A model generated the notes under the pieces. That model had not been told where the DNA came from and did not search any database. It saw only the letters and a list, made by a program, of their open reading frames with translations. From Smittium mucronatum (taxonomy: Eukaryota > Kickxellomycota > Harpellomycetes > Harpellales > Legeriomycetaceae), in contig LSSL01001091.1 of the NCBI GenBank assembly GCA_001953115.1, positions 1-56,037 on the forward strand: a stretch of 56,037 bases of DNA, read 5' to 3'. The position numbers were made by a program, and so were the translations under genes. Positions 15,069-55,253 of the stretch are shown one piece after another; the first letter of the stretch is position 1; the number at the start of each line of letters is the position of its first letter.

Positions 15069-18000
15069 ATGTTACTTTCTCAAACCAACCAAAATAATAT
15101 TAAAAGCTACGGCCAGATTATTGTCCTGAAAAAGAATGGTAAAGATTCGAATATAACATTCCCTTTGGACATGTCTATTTGTTCAATAGGAAGGTAAGTA
15201 TTTTACAGCCTTCGTAATTGCTAATTTATTAAAAAAAAATCTGTCTTCATTGCTTCATCCCCTTTTTTTCTAACTTTATTTCCTCAGTGGTGAATACAAT
15301 CACGTAAAAATTGACGTAGAAAATGTTGCTGAGCGACATTGTCTATTATTCCTGGATAGGAGTAATAACGTAAGTAGTTATTATAGGGAAAATGTCTATA
15401 TTTTCTCATACTTATTTTAAATTATAAATATAAATATTTAGGTGTGGATTCGCTCGATTGGTGATCAAATTACGCTTCTGAATGGTGAAAAAGTTGAAAA
15501 AGATCAGCTAGTCCATCATTTGGACGTCATAAAAATCGGCTCTAGATCTTTCAGATTTGAATTCAATTTCGAAAAAATGGAGAATTTAACTCCCGGAAAA
15601 AGTTCTACTTACATTTCGAATCGTAGACACACTTCGTTTTTATCTAATAATTCGTTTCAGTCATCCCAACAACTAATACCTCACAATAACAACCTCACAA
15701 TCAAGCAAAAAAAGATAATAGAAGGATTTTATCGCCGTAAAAGTATGACTATCCAAAAAGACAATGAATTCAAACACACCGACCTTATAAAAGCCCATTT
15801 CTCACCTCAGCAGGATAACCTGCCTGATTCTTTGAAAAACAAATTATCTTCTTTAAAGCTAGAGCTAAATCGTATGTGTAGCCCAAGTAAGAAAATAAAT
15901 AGACTATCTTCATTAAAATTAGTATCTAATCCCCCCAATGGCTTACAAAAGTACTCTTCTCAAACTGAAAAGAATCCTAACATCAATAGACGAAGGTCTT
16001 CCTCCCTTCCGCCAATATTATTTAATGAAATCTTGGATAAAAAGTCATCTGAATCGTCGTCTATATCTACAGATATCCAAAACCTTCCAGTTAAAATTTC
16101 TTGGGATTCGTACGAATATGAGAATTATGGTTCTGAGACAGAATTATCTCGTAAAACCCTGGCTTTATCACCTACATACTCTTTTTTGAATAAACTTGGT
16201 AGAAAAAACTCAACATCCAATGGTCTGGAACCCGTACCTTCATACTCCAAAATTATGAACTCAGGAATTTATTCGACACCGCAAATTATATCTAGGAAAA
16301 TTGAGATCCGTAAAATCTCCACCGATATTCCGATTAATAAAAAAGAAAGAAGAAAATCTTTCAAACGTCCAAATTATGCTGAAATGTCTAGTGATTCTGA
16401 TTCACCTTCTAGCTCTGATCTCGACTCAAATTGTAGTGCTAGAAAAAGACTTGTTAGATTCGGGCCTCCTTTAAGCCCAGAAATCTTTGATCGACAAGCT
16501 CCAACCTCAACTCCAGTCAAACGAGGGTCATTAATAAATAACATACCAGATACAAAAACGACACAACTTAAGTCTATACTTAAGGTAAAATGTGGGATTT
16601 TCAGCTTGAAGCTAGCCCCTAGCCCATCCCTTAAATCTAAATCATTTGAATCTGTGTCTGGGACTCCATTACTAAGACAAAGAAAAAATGGTAAGGTTAA
16701 TTACGGATCTAGTCTTTATGACGAAACACCCATTGCTACTTATGAAACTGATTTGTTGGATGAAGGCTATCTTTCAGGAGATATAGATGATGGAAAAAAC
16801 GAAAAAATTATAAACGATGAAAAACCCATGAGCTTTGAAAATAATTTAGAAGACCACACTGAAATCGATAAAAACTCTGGTTCTTTTTCTCAGGAAGAAA
16901 TCGAGGTTAGTGAACTTTTAGATGTTGCACCTTTACCTAGTGAAAAAGATTTTCCAATTGATAATGTCTCTTCTGACAAATCATCAGAAGATTTTATTCA
17001 AACTCTACCCGATCCAGTTGATGAAAATACACCATCTTTTGAAGCTGTCGAAGTAAATTCAGTCCAGATATCAACACCTTTAACTTCAAGTAACGACAAC
17101 ATAACCGATGGTGATCATGCTATAATTAACTTTACTGAAAAACCCTCACCTAAAACGAAACAAAACTATCCCACACCCAGAAGCAGAAGAAGAAGTATGA
17201 GATTGGTCGAAAAAAATTTATTGAAATCCAATAGTCCTACTGAGAAAAATCAAGACAATTCCAAATTAGTAATACAGAATATTCAAATTGATGAAAATTT
17301 TATAACTGAAACACCGAAAGAATATGTTTCCCAGTTAGAAATAATCCATCAGTCCTCAGAACTTAATCAAAAATCGGTCTCTATCGAAGCGCCTATTCCA
17401 AGCACTAATTCTACAGCCAAAAAAATAATAGGGATTTTACCAGATTTGGATATTATTAATAAAACTTTGACCAAAAAAAGAAGCAGGCTTTCTCTTGTTG
17501 GGAAGGTTTCTCCTTTGAACAAAAAGAAATTAGCTCGACTTAGTCTGGCATCAAATTCAACAATAACAGATAAAAAATTGAACTCTCCCAACCAAAGCAA
17601 ACTTAATTTCAGTACTAAAGACGGGGTAAATAAGGAAAAAATGTCAGATAATCCTGAGAATGATTTCGAATTAGATAGAGCTGAACTTAATTATGACTTT
17701 TCATCTTATAAAAGAAGATACTCAATGCCTCAAACATCTACCAGTCTTTCAGGAAATATATCTAGTTTTTTTTCAAAGAAACCTGCTAAAACTGAAGCAA
17801 CAGATTCTCTTCCCCCAATTGATGATAAATTAAAAGGCATTAAAATTGATAATAATCAGGAGAATGTGTCTCCTAATTCTATTTCTACTCAAATTGTTAA
17901 CCATGAATTAGACACCAATTCTGAATCTATAATGTTATCAAGTCAAAAGGCTACCAAAAATAATGATCCTAATGAAAAAAAAGATGAGAATAATCGCAAT

Positions 18001-18471
18001 AAACTTGTAGGATTCAAATCTACAACATGTTCTAATCAAAACTTTAAAGAAAAGATTCCTAGTACTTCTAGGTTGACAAAAAATATTAATACAACAAAAT
18101 CTCCCAAGAAACCAAAGAAGAATAAAATCAAAAAAATTAGCATTACATTAAACAAATCAAAAAAAATTGATAAAAACCTAATTTCTTCCGGTAAGGTTCA
18201 AACCATCATACAAACTAATTTAGCTGCTAATGACACCTCTACTCCACAAAATGGTTCAGGTCATATCCTTAGAACAAAAAGAAAGGCTTCAGAAGAGACT
18301 TTAGTTAATGAACCCAACATTGATCCGCCCTCAAAGAAAAGGAATGTTTCGGCAAAAACCAAGAAATCTGAAAAATCCAAACCATCCACAATTAAAACAT
18401 CTAATCCCAGCATTTTGGACCGCCTTGTTAGACCTACAGTATCATCGAAACTGAAGTCAAAAAATTTATAG
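15069..18471 (+). CDS. Ki-67-like protein: FHA-like domain plus PP1-docking (KiR-SLiM) segment
   Basis: Three exons: 15069-15193, 15288-15369 and 15442-18471 (introns 94 and 72 nt, GT-AG), giving 1078 residues. Residues about 14-110 form an FHA-like domain that aligns without gaps to the N-terminal FHA of animal Ki-67 through the first half (FPL...CSIG...RHC) and again at DVIKIGSRSFRFE. Residues 405-431 carry LVRF, LSPEIFD and TPVKRG, the Ki-67/Repo-Man PP1-docking segment (Pfam PP1_bind type). The rest is Ser/Thr/Lys/Asn-rich and disordered, with about twenty S/T-P sites, many Aurora-type sites (RRKS, RRRSS, RRRSM, RRYS) and a basic C-terminus (KKPKKNKIKK). By analogy it would recruit PP1 to mitotic chromosomes. 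The start was chosen because it lies just before the FHA; an in-frame ATG at 14895 would add 58 unrelated residues. Domain identity is strong; orthology to Ki-67 is inference. The leucine/arginine-rich C-terminal domain and the internal repeats of vertebrate Ki-67 are not seen. Confidence 0.85.
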
Positions 18472-18832: not shown

Positions 18833-20942
18833 TTATATTGAGGATTTCTTTAAGGAGAATGACAATTCCTTGAGTAAGAGCTGGGGGTCGCAAGTAGACA
18901 GACTATTAACAGAACGGGATTGGAATGATTTAGATATTTTGGAAACGGCTTGCTCAGCCAAGCACTGAGAAGTATCGAGTTTCGAAACCAAGCTGTTTGA
19001 TGAAGATTTGAGAGAATCTACAAAGAACTCAGTTTCTTGGGCAAAGAAATCAACAAAGTCCTCTAGACTTAATTTTGAGTTGGACTTGAAAGCAGAATAT
19101 CTGGCTAATATTTGGTTAGAATCAAAATCTAAGGATTCCGCTAATTCCTTATTTCCATCCAATTGACGGTTGTTCTTTATAAGTATACGGATTTTCTCAA
19201 AATCGGAATCATTTATGGTTGAATGCAAATCCATAAGAACACCTAGTTTATTATCAATATCCCTAGATTTTTTGTAGGCTCTAACAAAACTGCGGTCTTC
19301 TTCTTGATATTTAGTTATTAGTTCCATTAATTCTGATTTTCGTTTTTCATTTAATAAATTTTTTGGGTGAAGCCTCAAAGCTTCAGTGGAGGATGAATCT
19401 TGAGAATTTGATTCAGATTTCTTTCAAAATTATGGATATCAATAAAAAAATAATAAAATTGACGTTAGAAAAAAATTAAAATTAATTTTAATGAAAAACC
19501 CCCAGGTACTTACAGGTCGATTATACCAGGAAGTTTCCATAACACCATTCTCAATCGCAGACTTAACCTCATTTATAACTTCAATATTAACTGTAAAATG
19601 AGAATAATAATCATAAGTATATATATAGTTTATGAATTAAAAATTTAGGTATAAAAAAAACTATCTAGAATATCAAAGATGGAAGGGAAAAAATCACCTT
19701 GTCGTGCCAAATCACAGAGATTTTTGTTAACTTCAATTTCGGTCGGGATTTCAGGAACTGGGGTTCTTTTTACAATCCACGACAAAAGTTGCCTAAGTCT
19801 CAATGGCTCGGGAACTTCAGGTGATATATGTCTGTATAATAACTTAGTTTCAATCTCTTGATGGGGAATTGCTATAAAAAAAACGTATTTGATTTAGAGA
19901 GTGAGTCAAAAAATAAGTTTGAGTATAAAATGATCGAGATTGAATTAGAAATGCAGAAATACAGAATTTTAAGCTGAATTTAAATTTCCAATTGAATACG
20001 ATTCAAATTAAACATAAAGAAAATCACCTGAATATCCATTCCCTATTCCCGAAGCCCGTTTACCCCTCTGTCCAAATGTGGATCTCCTTCGTGTAGAAGT
20101 GTCTTTAAAACTGCTAGAAGAAGACTCAGATAAACCTATTGAAAAGGGATGAATAAAAAAAGAAAGTTATGATTAAATTAGCGGATTTTCAAAATCTAAT
20201 AAAAAGTATGGGTATTCAATAAAACAGAAGTAACTTGAATTATAAACTTATGAAGTAGTTAAATGAAAAAATAAGATTTTTTATGATTTGAAATTAGGAA
20301 TGTGAAATTACTGCTTGAATTTGGCATAAGAGTCATATTTTTTCGTTTTTTGAAAGCATTATAGTTTTTTAATATCCTGGCTTCGAGAAAATTTTCCTGT
20401 TTTCTTTTCTGTTGGTCTGAGATGGATTGATTGGAAGGTATAATTGATAATGATGTATTAATTACTTGCGGTTCAGAAAACTCCCTGGAAACTAATGCCT
20501 TTTGAGCTCTTTCAAAACGAATTTGAGATTCAGTAAATAATGAATCGTCAAGCTCGATAGTACTGATAGTTGACTCCTTTAAAATTGATTTAGGCTTAGA
20601 AAAATCTATGTTTATATTTTTAATTGGACTATTTGATGAGCTTTCTTCCGCAGCAACTATTGTAGATTCTTTGGGGGTTATATCAGTGGTTGGTATTAAA
20701 GCTGTTGGAACAGGATTTGAAGGTATTTCTATAGATTGAAAACTCTCTTTAGGAACAGAAGTTGATAGCGTGGAATCTAGATTACTGGGATCTGAATGGG
20801 AGATTCGATCATTATCAATCAAAGCGACATTGGTTATTTCTTGTTGCTTTATATGGGCTCGTGAGAATCTATTCTTTAATCTTAATATTCTTTCCTCCGC
20901 CGATTTACTCGGGCGCTGGATTTTGAAATCGGGACCGATCAT
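18833..20942 (-). CDS. DSN1: Kinetochore protein Dsn1/Mis13 (Mis12/MIND complex)
   Basis: Five exons on the minus strand: 20942-20312, 20135-20028, 19871-19698, 19590-19514 and 19420-18833 (introns 176, 156, 107 and 93 nt, all GT-AG), giving 525 residues. Dsn1 is the Mis12-complex subunit linking inner kinetochore to Ndc80. Diagnostic features: residues 226-244 contain RRRSTFG and RGKRASGIGNG, the fungal Dsn1 basic segment with two Aurora-type serines. Residues 247-275 contain AIPH and LLYRHISPEVPEPLRLRQLL, the most conserved fungal Mis13 block. SWY at 325-327 matches the conserved 'SxWy' segment. A charged helical region (about 345-400) is a likely coiled coil, and the end (DPQLLLKELS) resembles the conserved Dsn1 tail. 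Residues 1-210 are a disordered Ser/Pro/Thr-rich head. The ATG at 20942 is preceded by an in-frame TAA. The gene converges on the Ki-67-like gene with 361 bp between stops. Confidence 0.9.
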
Positions 20943-21085
20943 TTCGTGTCGCCAGGATTAAATAGTATAACGAATAATGGCGACAAGCCCTAAATAGAAT
21001 AACTATTGAATAAATATCCAGCTTTCTTTTGGCTGCAAACATTTCTTTGTTCAAACAATTGCTTTTTTAGCTTGAATGGGGACAG

Positions 21086-23336: not shown

Positions 23337-23387
23337 TGTACTCCTAAGAGTGAAATACCTTGCCTTGGTTTAGGGGCTTAATAGTGT

Positions 23388-24157
23388 NNNNNNNNNNNNN
23401 NNNNNNNNNNNNNNNNNNNNNNNNNNNNNNNNNNNNNNNNNNNNNNNNNNNNNNNNNNNNNNNNNNNNNNNNNNNNNNNNNNNNNNNNNNNNNNNNNNNN
23501 NNNNNNNNNNNNNNNNNNNNNNNNNNNNNNNNNNNNNNNNNNNNNNNNNNNNNNNNNNNNNNNNNNNNNNNNNNNNNNNNNNNNNNNNNNNNNNNNNNNN
23601 NNNNNNNNNNNNNNNNNNNNNNNNNNNNNNNNNNNNNNNNNNNNNNNNNNNNNNNNNNNNNNNNNNNNNNNNNNNNNNNNNNNNNNNNNNNNNNNNNNNN
23701 NNNNNNNNNNNNNNNNNNNNNNNNNNNNNNNNNNNNNNNNNNNNNNNNNNNNNNNNNNNNNNNNNNNNNNNNNNNNNNNNNNNNNNNNNNNNNNNNNNNN
23801 NNNNNNNNNNNNNNNNNNNNNNNNNNNNNNNNNNNNNNNNNNNNNNNNNNNNNNNNNNNNNNNNNNNNNNNNNNNNNNNNNNNNNNNNNNNNNNNNNNNN
23901 NNNNNNNNNNNNNNNNNNNNNNNNNNNNNNNNNNNNNNNNNNNNNNNNNNNNNNNNNNNNNNNNNNNNNNNNNNNNNNNNNNNNNNNNNNNNNNNNNNNN
24001 NNNNNNNNNNNNNNNNNNNNNNNNNNNNNNNNNNNNNNNNNNNNNNNNNNNNNNNNNNNNNNNNNNNNNNNNNNNNNNNNNNNNNNNNNNNNNNNNNNNN
24101 NNNNNNNNNNNNNNNNNNNNNNNNNNNNNNNNNNNNNNNNNNNNNNNNNNNNNNNNN
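23388..24157. other. Assembly gap (770 N)
   Basis: A run of undetermined bases inside repeat copy 3. Open frames that appear to cross it are artefacts of unknown codons. Confidence 0.99.
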
Positions 24158-24167
24158 CTCAGTAGCT

Positions 24168-28293: not shown

Positions 28294-30038
28294 ATGAGGG
28301 CTTTATATTTATTTTTTACGATATATACTGGGATGATTTATTTGTTTGTATCTAGTGGTAAAAAATTAAATTACTTATTATTGCTACTATAATATGGATT
28401 TTATTTGAAAAATATTTTGGTAAATAAAATATTACAAACCCCACTAATTTTTTTTTAGATATTTGCAATAATGACTTTACTATTAGGAGCAACACAGATG
28501 TGAAAATAATTAACGATTGTAAAAATTTTAATAAGGCACTTATTATCGATCCAACAGAAGAAATTAATCTTGAAATTAAGATTGGATTTGCATCTAGTAT
28601 TCATATAAAATTTAATCATGAAAATTTTAAAAAAGAAAGTTTTACTATAGAAATATTTCTATTTAATCTAAAACACGTCATAGAGGATATTTTTATCGAC
28701 TGCCCTGTTTTAAAGAATATAAAATTTGGATATTTATTGAATGTTGGAGGACATATAAGTGTAAAAAATACTAAAATTTCAACTTTATCACTAGACTCGC
28801 TTATTTATCCTCCGAAAGGTATATGTATCCAAAAAAATACTGAATTAGCTAAAATTTACATCAAAGGAATTACATATGTTCAAAAAAACCTTAATACTGT
28901 TCAGAATGTAGATGAACATGTGATAAACATAATAATTGCCCAGAATAGAAAATTGACAGGTATTTTCCTAAATCAGTTGGATAAGGTGGGCCATTTAAAA
29001 GTTTCCGGATCTGGGATCGTAAAAATCTTTGCTCCAAATCTTCAACAAGCTTATGTGTTTACTATTAACTACAATCAGGGCATTGACTCTGAAAGCAATT
29101 TTGATTTAATACAGGTATTTTGCTTTTTAAAAATATCTGATAACTTTATTGGAGTCGAAAAACCATCTGTAGCACCCTCTATGCCCAAAAATAACGAATG
29201 CAACTTAGAAAAAATAGTCAATACGAGTTTTTTTACCAAAAATCTGAATGGGAAAATATTAATCCGCAATAATGATCTTGTCAAATTGCAGTTTTGTAAG
29301 CTAGAAGAAATAAATAGCATCGAAATCTACGACAACTCAGAAATCTGTTTTTTGATGTTTCCGAAACTGATAAAAGTATGGGACTCTTTCATTTCCTACA
29401 ATAACCCCAAGTTATTTTATTTCTCACTCTCCTTCCCAAATTTAATAAAAGTTGGTTCGGATTTTTTTATTCAGGGATACTCACAAATATTTGACTCCAA
29501 CAAGAAAATTGAAGTTGGCGGGACATCATCCATAATAATTAGAAAAGAAGATTTTCAAAAAGTAGAAAATCAAAATCTCTGCGAAAACTTTAATTGCTTG
29601 GTTGATAATAAATTCAAAAAGATTTCTAAACTTCCTCAAATTGAAATATATACTTGCTCTAATGGGATCGCATCTCAGCCATTCAACTTTGAAGATTACA
29701 AAAAGATAATTTGCAACAAGTGTTACTATGAAAACTATAGTTCTGAATGTATTGAGAATACCTATGACAATTCCGTTAATATATGTAAACATAGCTTAAA
29801 AGCACACGAAATTCCCAGAGTTTTACATCAAAAAGAGGATATAAACGTCCCAAAATATGTAAGTTCATGTAAACTCACCACTGAAACCTATAAGGGCTCA
29901 TATGATTTTGATAATGAATGTCTAGGTGACATTGGAGACTCGTTTTACGTCAAGCATGAAAAAATGATAAAAATTTCAGGAATTTCAAAAATCTCTGATT
30001 TGATTTATGCAAAAGAGCCCTTAAATTTTCGTTCTTAA
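28294..30038 (+). CDS. Secreted receptor-L-domain protein (Ecm33/Sps2-like), no GPI tail
   Basis: Two exons, 28294-28357 and 28459-30038 (intron 101 nt, GT-AG, phase 1), encode 547 residues. The first exon is a signal peptide (MRALYLFFTIYTGMIYLFVS), joined directly to a Cys-containing mature N-terminus (DICNNDFTIRSN). Repeating short hydrophobic beta-strand units (patterns like LNGKILIRNN, EINSIEIYDN, LIKVWDSFISYNN) are typical of the leucine-rich L domains of fungal Ecm33/Sps2-family wall proteins. A Cys-rich segment follows at about 370-430. The protein stops at KEPLNFRS, without the hydrophilic stalk and hydrophobic GPI signal that the paralogue at 53354 has, so it may be secreted or wall-retained by other means. 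Alternatively a missed last exon exists. The L-domain family call is confident; any wall-integrity role is inferred. Confidence 0.8.
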
Positions 30039-53353: not shown

Positions 53354-55253
53354 ATGATGCTAAAATTCTTTGCTGGGTTGGTACCTCTTCTATCCATTGT
53401 GCATCTAGGGGCGGCAAATGGTAGGGTTAAAATATTAATATTTATTTTTAAATTCATATGTATTCAATATTGGTATAATAAAGCATTATATCTTCTTTTT
53501 ATTCGTAGGTAAATTTTGTGGTGGGACTTATGAGGTCAAGGATTTTCAAAGTTTTAGAAGTATCTTAGGCTGTTCTGAGATTTCGGGATCTTTACTAATA
53601 AGAGAGTTTCCGGGGATCGATATATCAGTTCTTGGTGTTGAAAAAATAAAAGGAAGCCTTACGATTGAACTATCAGCTAAATCGAGTTATATTTTTAATT
53701 TCCTAAAAGAAATAGAGGGGTCAGTATTTATTACTGGAGGTGTGGAAAATTATTTGACTTTCTCCTCTCTTACGAAAATTCGGGGAGCAGTTTCTATACA
53801 AAACACTGGCTTAAAAGTTCTGGATATGAGATATATTAAACTCATTACTGGGGAGCTAAGAATAGAAAATAACCTTCACCTTGAAAGTGTTTATTTAAAC
53901 TCTCTTCAATTAGCTTCTGACATTGAATATAGCCAATGGTCTACAAGTTATAATTCTGCAACCGGCGGCATAATATTTATTAAGAATTCAAATCTTAAAA
54001 ACGCCGATTTATCTAGTTTAGTGGCAGCTACTAAGCTCATTTTTATTGAATGTGGAGTGACTAGTATTACTTCAAATAATCTTGGGTATGTGAAAGATTT
54101 AAATTTGGCCAAAAACAAAAACCTTATCTTTGCTCACTTCACATCTCTTACTGAGTGCTTTGGGACGTTTAAAGTTGAAGATAATAGCGTATATCTCTCA
54201 TTAATGATCAATAAGGTCAAGAAAATAGAAATATATGATGTAAATGGCGCAACTGTCTTTTGTTCTGAATTGAAAGAAGTGTCTAGCTTTACTGGCTACC
54301 AAACTGAAATCTCTAACTCCCAATTTGTTTTCATGCCCAATACCGAAATAAAAATTAATGAGATGAGCATCTATGGCGCTAGCATGGCGCTCAACATCCC
54401 CAAAACTACTGAAATCAAGAAATTAAATATTTATTACAAAGATAAAAACCCATGTGATTTGATTAAGGAAAGTATTGGTTCGAGTATCTCAATTAGTTGC
54501 GCTGAAATGGAAAGAACCACTATTATTCCAAAGAGGCAAATATTTTTGCCATTAATTTCTATATATAATTCAAAATTCCATTCGGAATCGATTGCGAAAG
54601 ATGTACTTTATTATAAGCCTATCGAATGTACTGGGAAATTCACAACTTCGTGCAAAAGTATGGGATACTATGATCTCTGTAAAAGAGAAAATTTCCGTAG
54701 TTTGAACCAAGAATGCTGCGACACTAGAAACGATTTTGTTGTTCATGAATCCAACTTCGACGTTGAAGGCAGTGTTCATATAGAGTTTTCAAAGTTGGAA
54801 TATAACGTACCGACACAAAATCTACACAGTCATATTGTTCAAGTTGGCGAACGACAACTTAATCTACTTGAACCTGATGTTAACTGCGGTAACACCAACA
54901 ATGAATTTGTTTGCAATAAACTAAACTTAGTAAAAATTGAAGATATTATTGGCTTAAATTTTGCTCTGGAGTACATTAAAACCGCAAAAACCCCTGATGA
55001 TTCTAATGATAAACTCGATGATCCAAAAAAAAATGAGGGATCCGATATAAATCGCGGTGAATTTGGTTCAGGAAAAGATATATCTGAAAAAACTGTTGCA
55101 AAGATTCAGAGGCTTGATGGTGAAAGTGAGTATGAACTCATTATGCATCAATTTACGTATTCCATGCATAAAAAATCAATAGCCCCTGCTAATAAAATCA
55201 AATCTATGATTACGCTTATTATCTTCTTTGTATCAACAGTATTGATGTTCTAA
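53354..55253 (+). CDS. GPI-anchored receptor-L-domain protein (Ecm33/Sps2-like)
   Basis: Two exons, 53354-53420 and 53509-55253 (intron 88 nt, GT-AG, phase 1), encode 603 residues. Residues 1-22 form a signal peptide (MMLKFFAGLVPLLSIVHLGA), followed by a Cys-containing mature start (GKFCGGTYEVKDFQSF). The GCSEISGSLLIREF pattern is the classic first L-domain strand pair (C-xxI-xGxLxI) of Ecm33/Sps2 proteins. Many further strand repeats follow (EGSVFI, RGAVSI, TGELRIENN). A Cys-rich region spans about residues 410-530 and a Asp/Lys/Glu/Gly-rich hydrophilic stalk about 535-570. The C-terminus (MITLIIFFVSTVLMF) is hydrophobic and ends without charges, as in GPI-anchor signals. In yeasts this family supports wall integrity or spore-wall formation; the role here is inferred. 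A second ATG at 53357 is equally possible. It is a paralogue of the gene at 28294. Confidence 0.88.

Follow-up and report, generated by a model that had tools for sequence, protein, structure and literature searches.

Ki-67 and Repo-Man are mitotic PP1 adaptors of animals which share a docking segment built from an RVxF motif, a PhiPhi motif and the KiR motif (KiR-SLiM). As presented by Kumar et al. 2016, the KiR motif is confined within Swiss-Prot to these two proteins, the corresponding pocket of PP1 is theirs alone, and the similarity of Repo-Man to Ki-67 is restricted to the docking segment (PMC5005033). In fungi, bridgin (Bgi1) of Cryptococcus neoformans is described as a kinetochore-to-chromatin linker, and its authors name Ki-67 as the metazoan homologue (PMC7794384). 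Here we describe a gene of Smittium mucronatum (Kickxellomycota), located at 15069..18471 on the forward strand of a 56,037-nucleotide stretch of DNA (positions 1 to 56,037 of contig LSSL01001091.1, assembly GCA_001953115.1), referred to below as the window. Its predicted product of 1,078 residues joins an N-terminal FHA domain to a PP1-docking segment of the Ki-67/Repo-Man type.

Bridgin was discovered via kinetochore pull-downs and is reported to be recruited by, and dependent on, the KMN network; its basic tail binds chromatin and can be substituted by the basic region of human Ki-67 (PMC7794384). The same paper describes a putative PP1 site at 161-164, which it calls unconventional, 13 motif repeats and a middle region with an isoelectric point (pI) of 4.65; it has PP1 in a table of bridgin pull-downs and discusses the reversal by PP1 of Aurora marks on Dsn1 at anaphase (PMC7794384). 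Bridgin is described there in Basidiomycota and basal ascomycetes, and a 2022 review terms it 'Ki-67-like' and places it also in other fungal phyla and in Amoebozoa (PMC9252888). A preliminary description of the present locus had offered it as a new, fungal homologue of a protein regarded as animal and mainly vertebrate. The novelty does not hold, since bridgin is in print with Ki-67 named as its homologue (PMC7794384), and the premise is dated, as an alignment of the docking segment from 2014 already includes Hydra and Trichoplax in its legend (PMC4032110). As far as we have searched, what is new is that the full docking segment now extends to fungi: no fungal protein with a full RVxF/PhiPhi/KiR-like segment was found in the open-licence literature, and the Pfam and InterPro member lists may already show one.

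Gene structure and the FHA head

The gene starts with an ATG at 15069 and comprises three exons. Its two introns measure 94 and 72 nt, each with the donor GTAAGT and with CAG or TAG as acceptor. Exon 3 runs for 1,009 codons without a stop in DNA of ~25% GC, and the alignment with the FHA domain of Ki-67 crosses both exon junctions, gap-free at each. For intron 1, GT..AG pairs were enumerated with donors from 15151 to 15215 and acceptors up to 15340, the start and the second donor being held fixed. Two pairs were open and in frame with exon 3, namely the chosen one and another which deletes seven residues around the conserved Gly-Arg position. The predicted splice model is coherent and backed by homology, and the coordinates and protein length first proposed for the gene are correct, with start, exons and splice sites consistent.

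Residues 39-102 match the FHA model in a Pfam search (PF00498; 29.4 bits, cut-off 20.7, E 1.1e-6). The top solved structures for the FHA head are both of Ki-67 (2aff and 1r21; 38 bits, E ~1e-8), and the next matches, at 15.9 bits each, are a non-FHA enzyme (E 0.079) and the FHA protein GarA (E 0.08). Reciprocally, the FHA domain of human Ki-67 matched only the spliced protein (E 1.6e-10) when compared with seven other FHA loci of the genome, which were handicapped by being entered as unspliced six-frame translations. The head is identical to Ki-67 at 31/109 positions (28%), and the alignment reveals traits common to both, FPL..S.C..G towards the beginning and DVI.I..RSFR.E at the end. The Ki-67-like N-terminal FHA domain is thus borne out by all three comparisons. 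Two other families were considered for the protein and set aside: the type III secretion family Yop-YscD_cpl (28.4 bits, E 2e-6, under its cut-off of 33.2), which was taken as an FHA-fold cross-match over the FHA region, and SPACA7 (E 0.057, under cut-off).

According to a published analysis, the conserved residues of FHA domains number five: three (Arg, Ser and Asn) make contact with the phosphopeptide, and two (Gly and His) maintain the fold (PMC4037201). Three of the five are retained here (Gly41, His59 and Asn83); Arg is replaced by Ser42, whose codon is split by intron 1, and Ser by Ala56, the counterparts of Arg31 and Ser45 in Ki-67 (2aff chain numbering). The relevant half is visible in one frame at four of the seven other FHA loci (L001, L002, and L004 and L005, which give the same translation), and both Arg and Ser are kept in all of these; L003 shows Ser and His only, both kept, and L006 and L007 do not show that half. 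We treat the five-residue set as a matter of function and not of family definition. The domain has probably retained its fold, and binding of phosphothreonine in the canonical manner is probably weak or lost; with two of the residues that contact the phosphopeptide gone, it is unlikely to work as it does in Ki-67.

The docking segment, its switches and the protein body

Among the Pfam models matched by the protein, PP1_bind (PF15276) is the most significant; it covers residues 403-445 (E 2e-8; 34.7 bits against a cut-off of 27). When the 73.8 Mb assembly was scanned with this model in six frames (E to 10), one candidate and one match were returned, the docking segment described here, a result that speaks only for paralogues that retain the segment. 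Its best solved matches are Repo-Man (5inb, 4.3e-5; 5ioh, 7.4e-5), followed by Ki-67 (5j28, 7e-4). Over 30 residues it shares 13 identities with Repo-Man and 14 with Ki-67, and the latter two share 18 with each other. An RVxF motif is present as RLVRF, the spacer form of the motif, EI stands at the PhiPhi position, and the spacing from RVxF to KiR equals that of the known segments (Phe to Phe, 9 residues). The proposed Ki-67/Repo-Man-type docking segment is confirmed by the Pfam score and by the solved matches, and searches of Pfam and of solved structures gave neither of the contrary outcomes, an FHA domain nearer to another family or a missing PP1_bind match. By sequence, the homology of the PP1_bind/KiR region is real.

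Aurora B is reported to phosphorylate the x residue of RVxF in both Ki-67 and Repo-Man, Cdk1 sites are described at S400, T412 and T419 of Repo-Man, and phosphomimics of the Aurora B and Cdk1 sites block PP1 (PMC5005033). The S. mucronatum protein keeps equivalents of two of the three Cdk1 sites (LSPE for S400, STP for T412), whereas human Ki-67 has Arg and Met at these positions. Unlike in Repo-Man, the positions of T394 (Aurora B) and T419 (Cdk1) are occupied by Arg and Leu, and the same Arg stands where Ki-67 has its Aurora site. In the published view Ki-67 is ancestral to Repo-Man (PMC4032110), and it would fit this view if the S400- and T412-type sites were ancestral and lost in human Ki-67, which on one fungal sequence is a suggestion only.

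Phosphorylation sites were compared with 1,000 shuffles of the portion after residue 112. SP/TP dipeptides are enriched (22 vs a shuffle mean of 13.9, reached by 0.8%), as are double-basic Aurora-type sites, [RK][RK](x)[ST] (20 vs 9.3, 0.2%). The full Cdk consensus (4 vs 2.2, 16.5%) and the loose Aurora consensus (35 vs 31.0, 22.9%) are at shuffle level. The initial impression of a body dense in Cdk and Aurora sites therefore stands for the first two patterns and not for the last two.

A simple charge-hydropathy index, not a disorder predictor, is -0.079 for residues 113-1078 vs +0.161 for residues 1-112, and is positive in 10 of 42 intervals of 51 residues, 6 of them outside the FHA domain. 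It predicts a body that is disordered overall, as had been proposed, and the proposed basic tail is likewise present (Table 1). Among the stretches measured within 113-930, residues 470-660 are clearly acidic. Long internal repeats were not seen in the protein, where merely four 5-mers recur, and LR/RL pairs are not enriched (9 vs 6.9 in shuffles, reached by 23.4%); the tandem Ki-67 repeats and LR-rich chromatin-binding tail of vertebrate Ki-67 were not found.

Compared by its description, bridgin has the same N-terminal FHA domain, long disordered body, basic tail, fungal host and proposed PP1 site. It differs in that its unconventional site lies at 161-164 and the KiR-type segment here at 405-431, and in having 13 repeats and an acidic middle, where the present protein has no long repeats seen and a middle that as a whole is not acidic. 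With Ki-67 (MKI67) the protein shares the succession of FHA domain, KiR-type docking segment, disorder and basic tail, but it is one third the size and shows neither Ki-67 repeats nor LR enrichment. Repo-Man (CDCA2), which is not known to have an FHA domain, gives the best solved match of the docking segment and shares with the protein the two Cdk1-type sites that human Ki-67 is without.

Proposed role and alternative readings

The PP1 gene of S. mucronatum, found on contigs C1702 and C2189, which do not differ over 2,601 nt, codes for LLE|VRGS, with the equivalent of Arg20, and also keeps R74, E77, Y78, F81 and Q294; the residues are numbered as in human PP1. Arg20 of human PP1 gamma is described as selecting for the Ki-67/Repo-Man segment (PMC5005033). 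The assembly further contains the Aurora-binding box of INCENP (3.3e-11) and the C-terminal domain of CENP-C (3.9e-18). It also matches chitin synthase (8.1e-76), in keeping with a fungal genome. Three matches to CENP-T_C, on C2428, C2391 and C1379 (1.1e-5, 3.2e-4 and 4.0e-4), could represent CENP-T or other histone-fold proteins; one of them is over the cut-off (31.2 bits, 1.1e-5), and the two weaker ones mean little because prokaryote controls also match (n=14; CENP-C_C below cut-off in 4, CENP-T_C in 2). PF12196, the NIFK-binding model, and PF08317 (Spc7/KNL1) had no match in the genome, and as the controls were also silent this is not evidence of absence. An FHA gene was found twice with equal scores (C343/C1766), and the PP1 gene lies on the two contigs named above; the assembly holds duplicate contigs or haplotypes.

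We consider it likely that the protein belongs to the bridgin/Ki-67 family and serves as a Cdk1-gated PP1 adaptor at kinetochores or on mitotic chromatin, where we infer binding, gating and location. The basic tail would hold the protein on DNA by charge, and the disordered body and FHA fold would contact a scaffold, by analogy with bridgin most likely the outer kinetochore. The RLVRF...EIFD...TPVKRG segment would wrap PP1 in the manner of Ki-67 and Repo-Man. Early in mitosis, phosphorylation by Cdk1 of the SP and TP within the segment would keep PP1 off; at anaphase these sites would be cleared, allowing PP1 to dock and Aurora and Cdk marks to be reversed.

Several observations weigh against this interpretation or narrow it. 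Of the three contacts that an FHA domain makes with the phosphopeptide, two are gone (Arg to Ser42, Ser to Ala56), and the altered pocket speaks against reading the protein simply as Ki-67-like. Also lost is the residue of the Aurora B switch: the x of RVxF is Arg408 instead of the Ser/Thr of Ki-67 and Repo-Man, so the Aurora switch of the motif is absent here. Residues 113-930 are net basic (pI 9.1) vs the acidic middle of bridgin (pI 4.65). The Glc7 query of budding yeast also has Arg20, although budding yeast is not known to have Ki-67, and Arg20 is therefore not specific and shows permissiveness, not co-evolution. With the docking segment as query, the unrelated PHAX reached E 0.004; we rejected this weak match, which arises partly via a flanking acidic Ser stretch. 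Finally, the KiR-SLiM consensus FDxxLP(P/A)N(T/S)PL(R/K)(R/K)Gx(T/S)P (Kumar et al. 2016) is matched at 8 of its 14 specified positions, and since 36/5,000 shuffles of the protein also reach 8, the KiR part alone is weak evidence. RVxF-type motifs also arise by chance, the three in the protein comparing with a shuffle mean of 0.9 and being reached by 8.1% of shuffles. One could thus suppose that an RVxF motif and a chance KiR-like stretch came together in the disordered part of an unrelated FHA protein. We regard such convergence as very improbable, given that the segment as a whole has an E of 2e-8 and is the sole such match found in 73.8 Mb, that its RVxF-to-KiR spacing is identical, and that the FHA domain of the same protein is independently Ki-67-like and precedes the segment as in Ki-67. 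The homology rests on the whole segment and not on the KiR motif. Still harder to credit is the notion that the FHA exons come from one gene and the long exon from another, as the FHA domain spans three exons, with its last strands and conserved Asn in the frame of the long exon, which stays open for over a thousand codons.

Two other views concern function. In a narrower and non-exclusive form of the Cdk1-gated adaptor, the protein would be an ordinary bridgin-type linker whose main job is bridging outer kinetochore and chromatin, with PP1 docking a minor add-on. This has a reasonable claim, if a somewhat less than even one: the architecture resembles that of the KMN-recruited Cryptococcus protein with its replaceable chromatin-binding tail, the adjoining gene encodes Dsn1, and bridgin too is described with a putative PP1 site and with PP1 in its pull-down table. 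However, the docking segment is the strongest Pfam match of the protein and appears fuller than the site described for bridgin, and CENP-C and one CENP-T_C match above cut-off are present, therefore a substitute linker may not be needed. A true perichromosomal-layer protein, acting as surfactant and organiser as in vertebrates, would agree with the FHA and KiR homology to Ki-67 and with the disordered body and basic tail, yet it seems unlikely. The missing long repeats, LR/RL pairs at shuffle level and the degenerate state of the FHA pocket that takes NIFK in Ki-67 argue against it, PF12196 has no match in the genome (with an uninformative control), and the one fungal relative with a function reported in the literature consulted, bridgin, is described as sitting at kinetochores (PMC7794384). 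We retain the Cdk1-gated PP1 adaptor as the best explanation.

Neighbouring genes and evolutionary meaning

The features of the gene and of its convergent neighbour are listed in Table 1. A match to PF08202 on 19645-19893 (E 4.5e-10) identifies the neighbour as Dsn1/Mis13, in a gene apparently with several introns; its frames 18833-19423, 19439-19636 and 20259-20957 had no Pfam match. The frame 20008-20166 of this gene has a RRRSTFGQRGKRASG stretch which resembles the Aurora-regulated autoinhibitory motif of Dsn1. The adjacency of the two genes may be due to chance. Elsewhere in the window, a 604-residue frame at 53439-55253 (+) has a borderline match to the Receptor L domain, at the cut-off with 21.8 bits, and its product is perhaps an Ecm33/Sps2-like surface protein. 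The frame 28428-30038, with no Pfam match, resembles it by eye. A run of N (X in the frames) lies at about 23370-24165.

Table 1. Positions in the window of the gene, its predicted protein features and the adjacent gene
Feature	Position	Strand	Remarks
Exon 1	15069..15193	+	Start and first half of FHA domain; gene model
FHA domain, residues 16-112	15114..15570	+	Over three exons; best solved relative Ki-67
Exon 2	15288..15369	+	Middle of FHA domain; Ala56 replaces conserved Ser, His59 kept; gene model
Exon 3	15442..18471	+	Remainder of FHA domain (Asn83 kept), disordered body, PP1-docking segment, acidic stretch, basic tail, stop
RVxF-type PP1 motif RLVRF, residues 405-409	16447..16461	+	x residue is Arg408
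LSPEI, residues 413-417	16471..16485	+	PhiPhi motif and Cdk1-type site equivalent to Repo-Man S400
KiR-SLiM-like segment FDRQAPTSTPVKRG, residues 418-431	16486..16527	+	Includes TP equivalent to Repo-Man T412
SILK, residues 447-450	16573..16584	+	Possible second PP1 motif, maybe chance; at least one SILK in 15.1% of shuffles
Acidic stretch, residues 470-660	16642..17214	+	pI 4.33, net -20
Basic tail, residues 900-1078	17932..18468	+	pI 10.5, net +29
Dsn1/Mis13 of Mis12 kinetochore complex, convergent neighbour	18833..20942	-	One exon by Pfam; rest and ends inferred from open frames

A mitotic PP1 adaptor combining an FHA domain with the docking segment probably predates the animal-fungal split, and the comparison points to PP1 recruitment as the older, shared function. 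As a tentative scenario, for which we claim less, the animal-fungal ancestor may have had a single FHA and KiR adaptor, with phosphorylation by Cdk1 keeping PP1 away from chromosomes. In animals, the Aurora B switch at RVxF and the perichromosomal coat would be later additions; in vertebrates, the switches would have been divided among Ki-67 and Repo-Man; and in bridgin the segment would have been lost or reduced. In S. mucronatum, PP1 would be delivered to the outer kinetochore, where Dsn1, encoded by the neighbouring gene, would be a natural substrate. With the full segment in a fungus, a degenerate FHA pocket and exchanged kinase switches, the protein is a variant that merits a specialist note and not a new class. 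That two Repo-Man Cdk sites occur within a Ki-67-type protein hints at what the ancestral switch was like, and the short protein would offer a separable Cdk-type gate in which the motif lacks an Aurora residue. Finding a KiR-type segment in a fungus links two literatures, that on the mitotic-exit phosphatases of animals and that on the kinetochore linkers of fungi.

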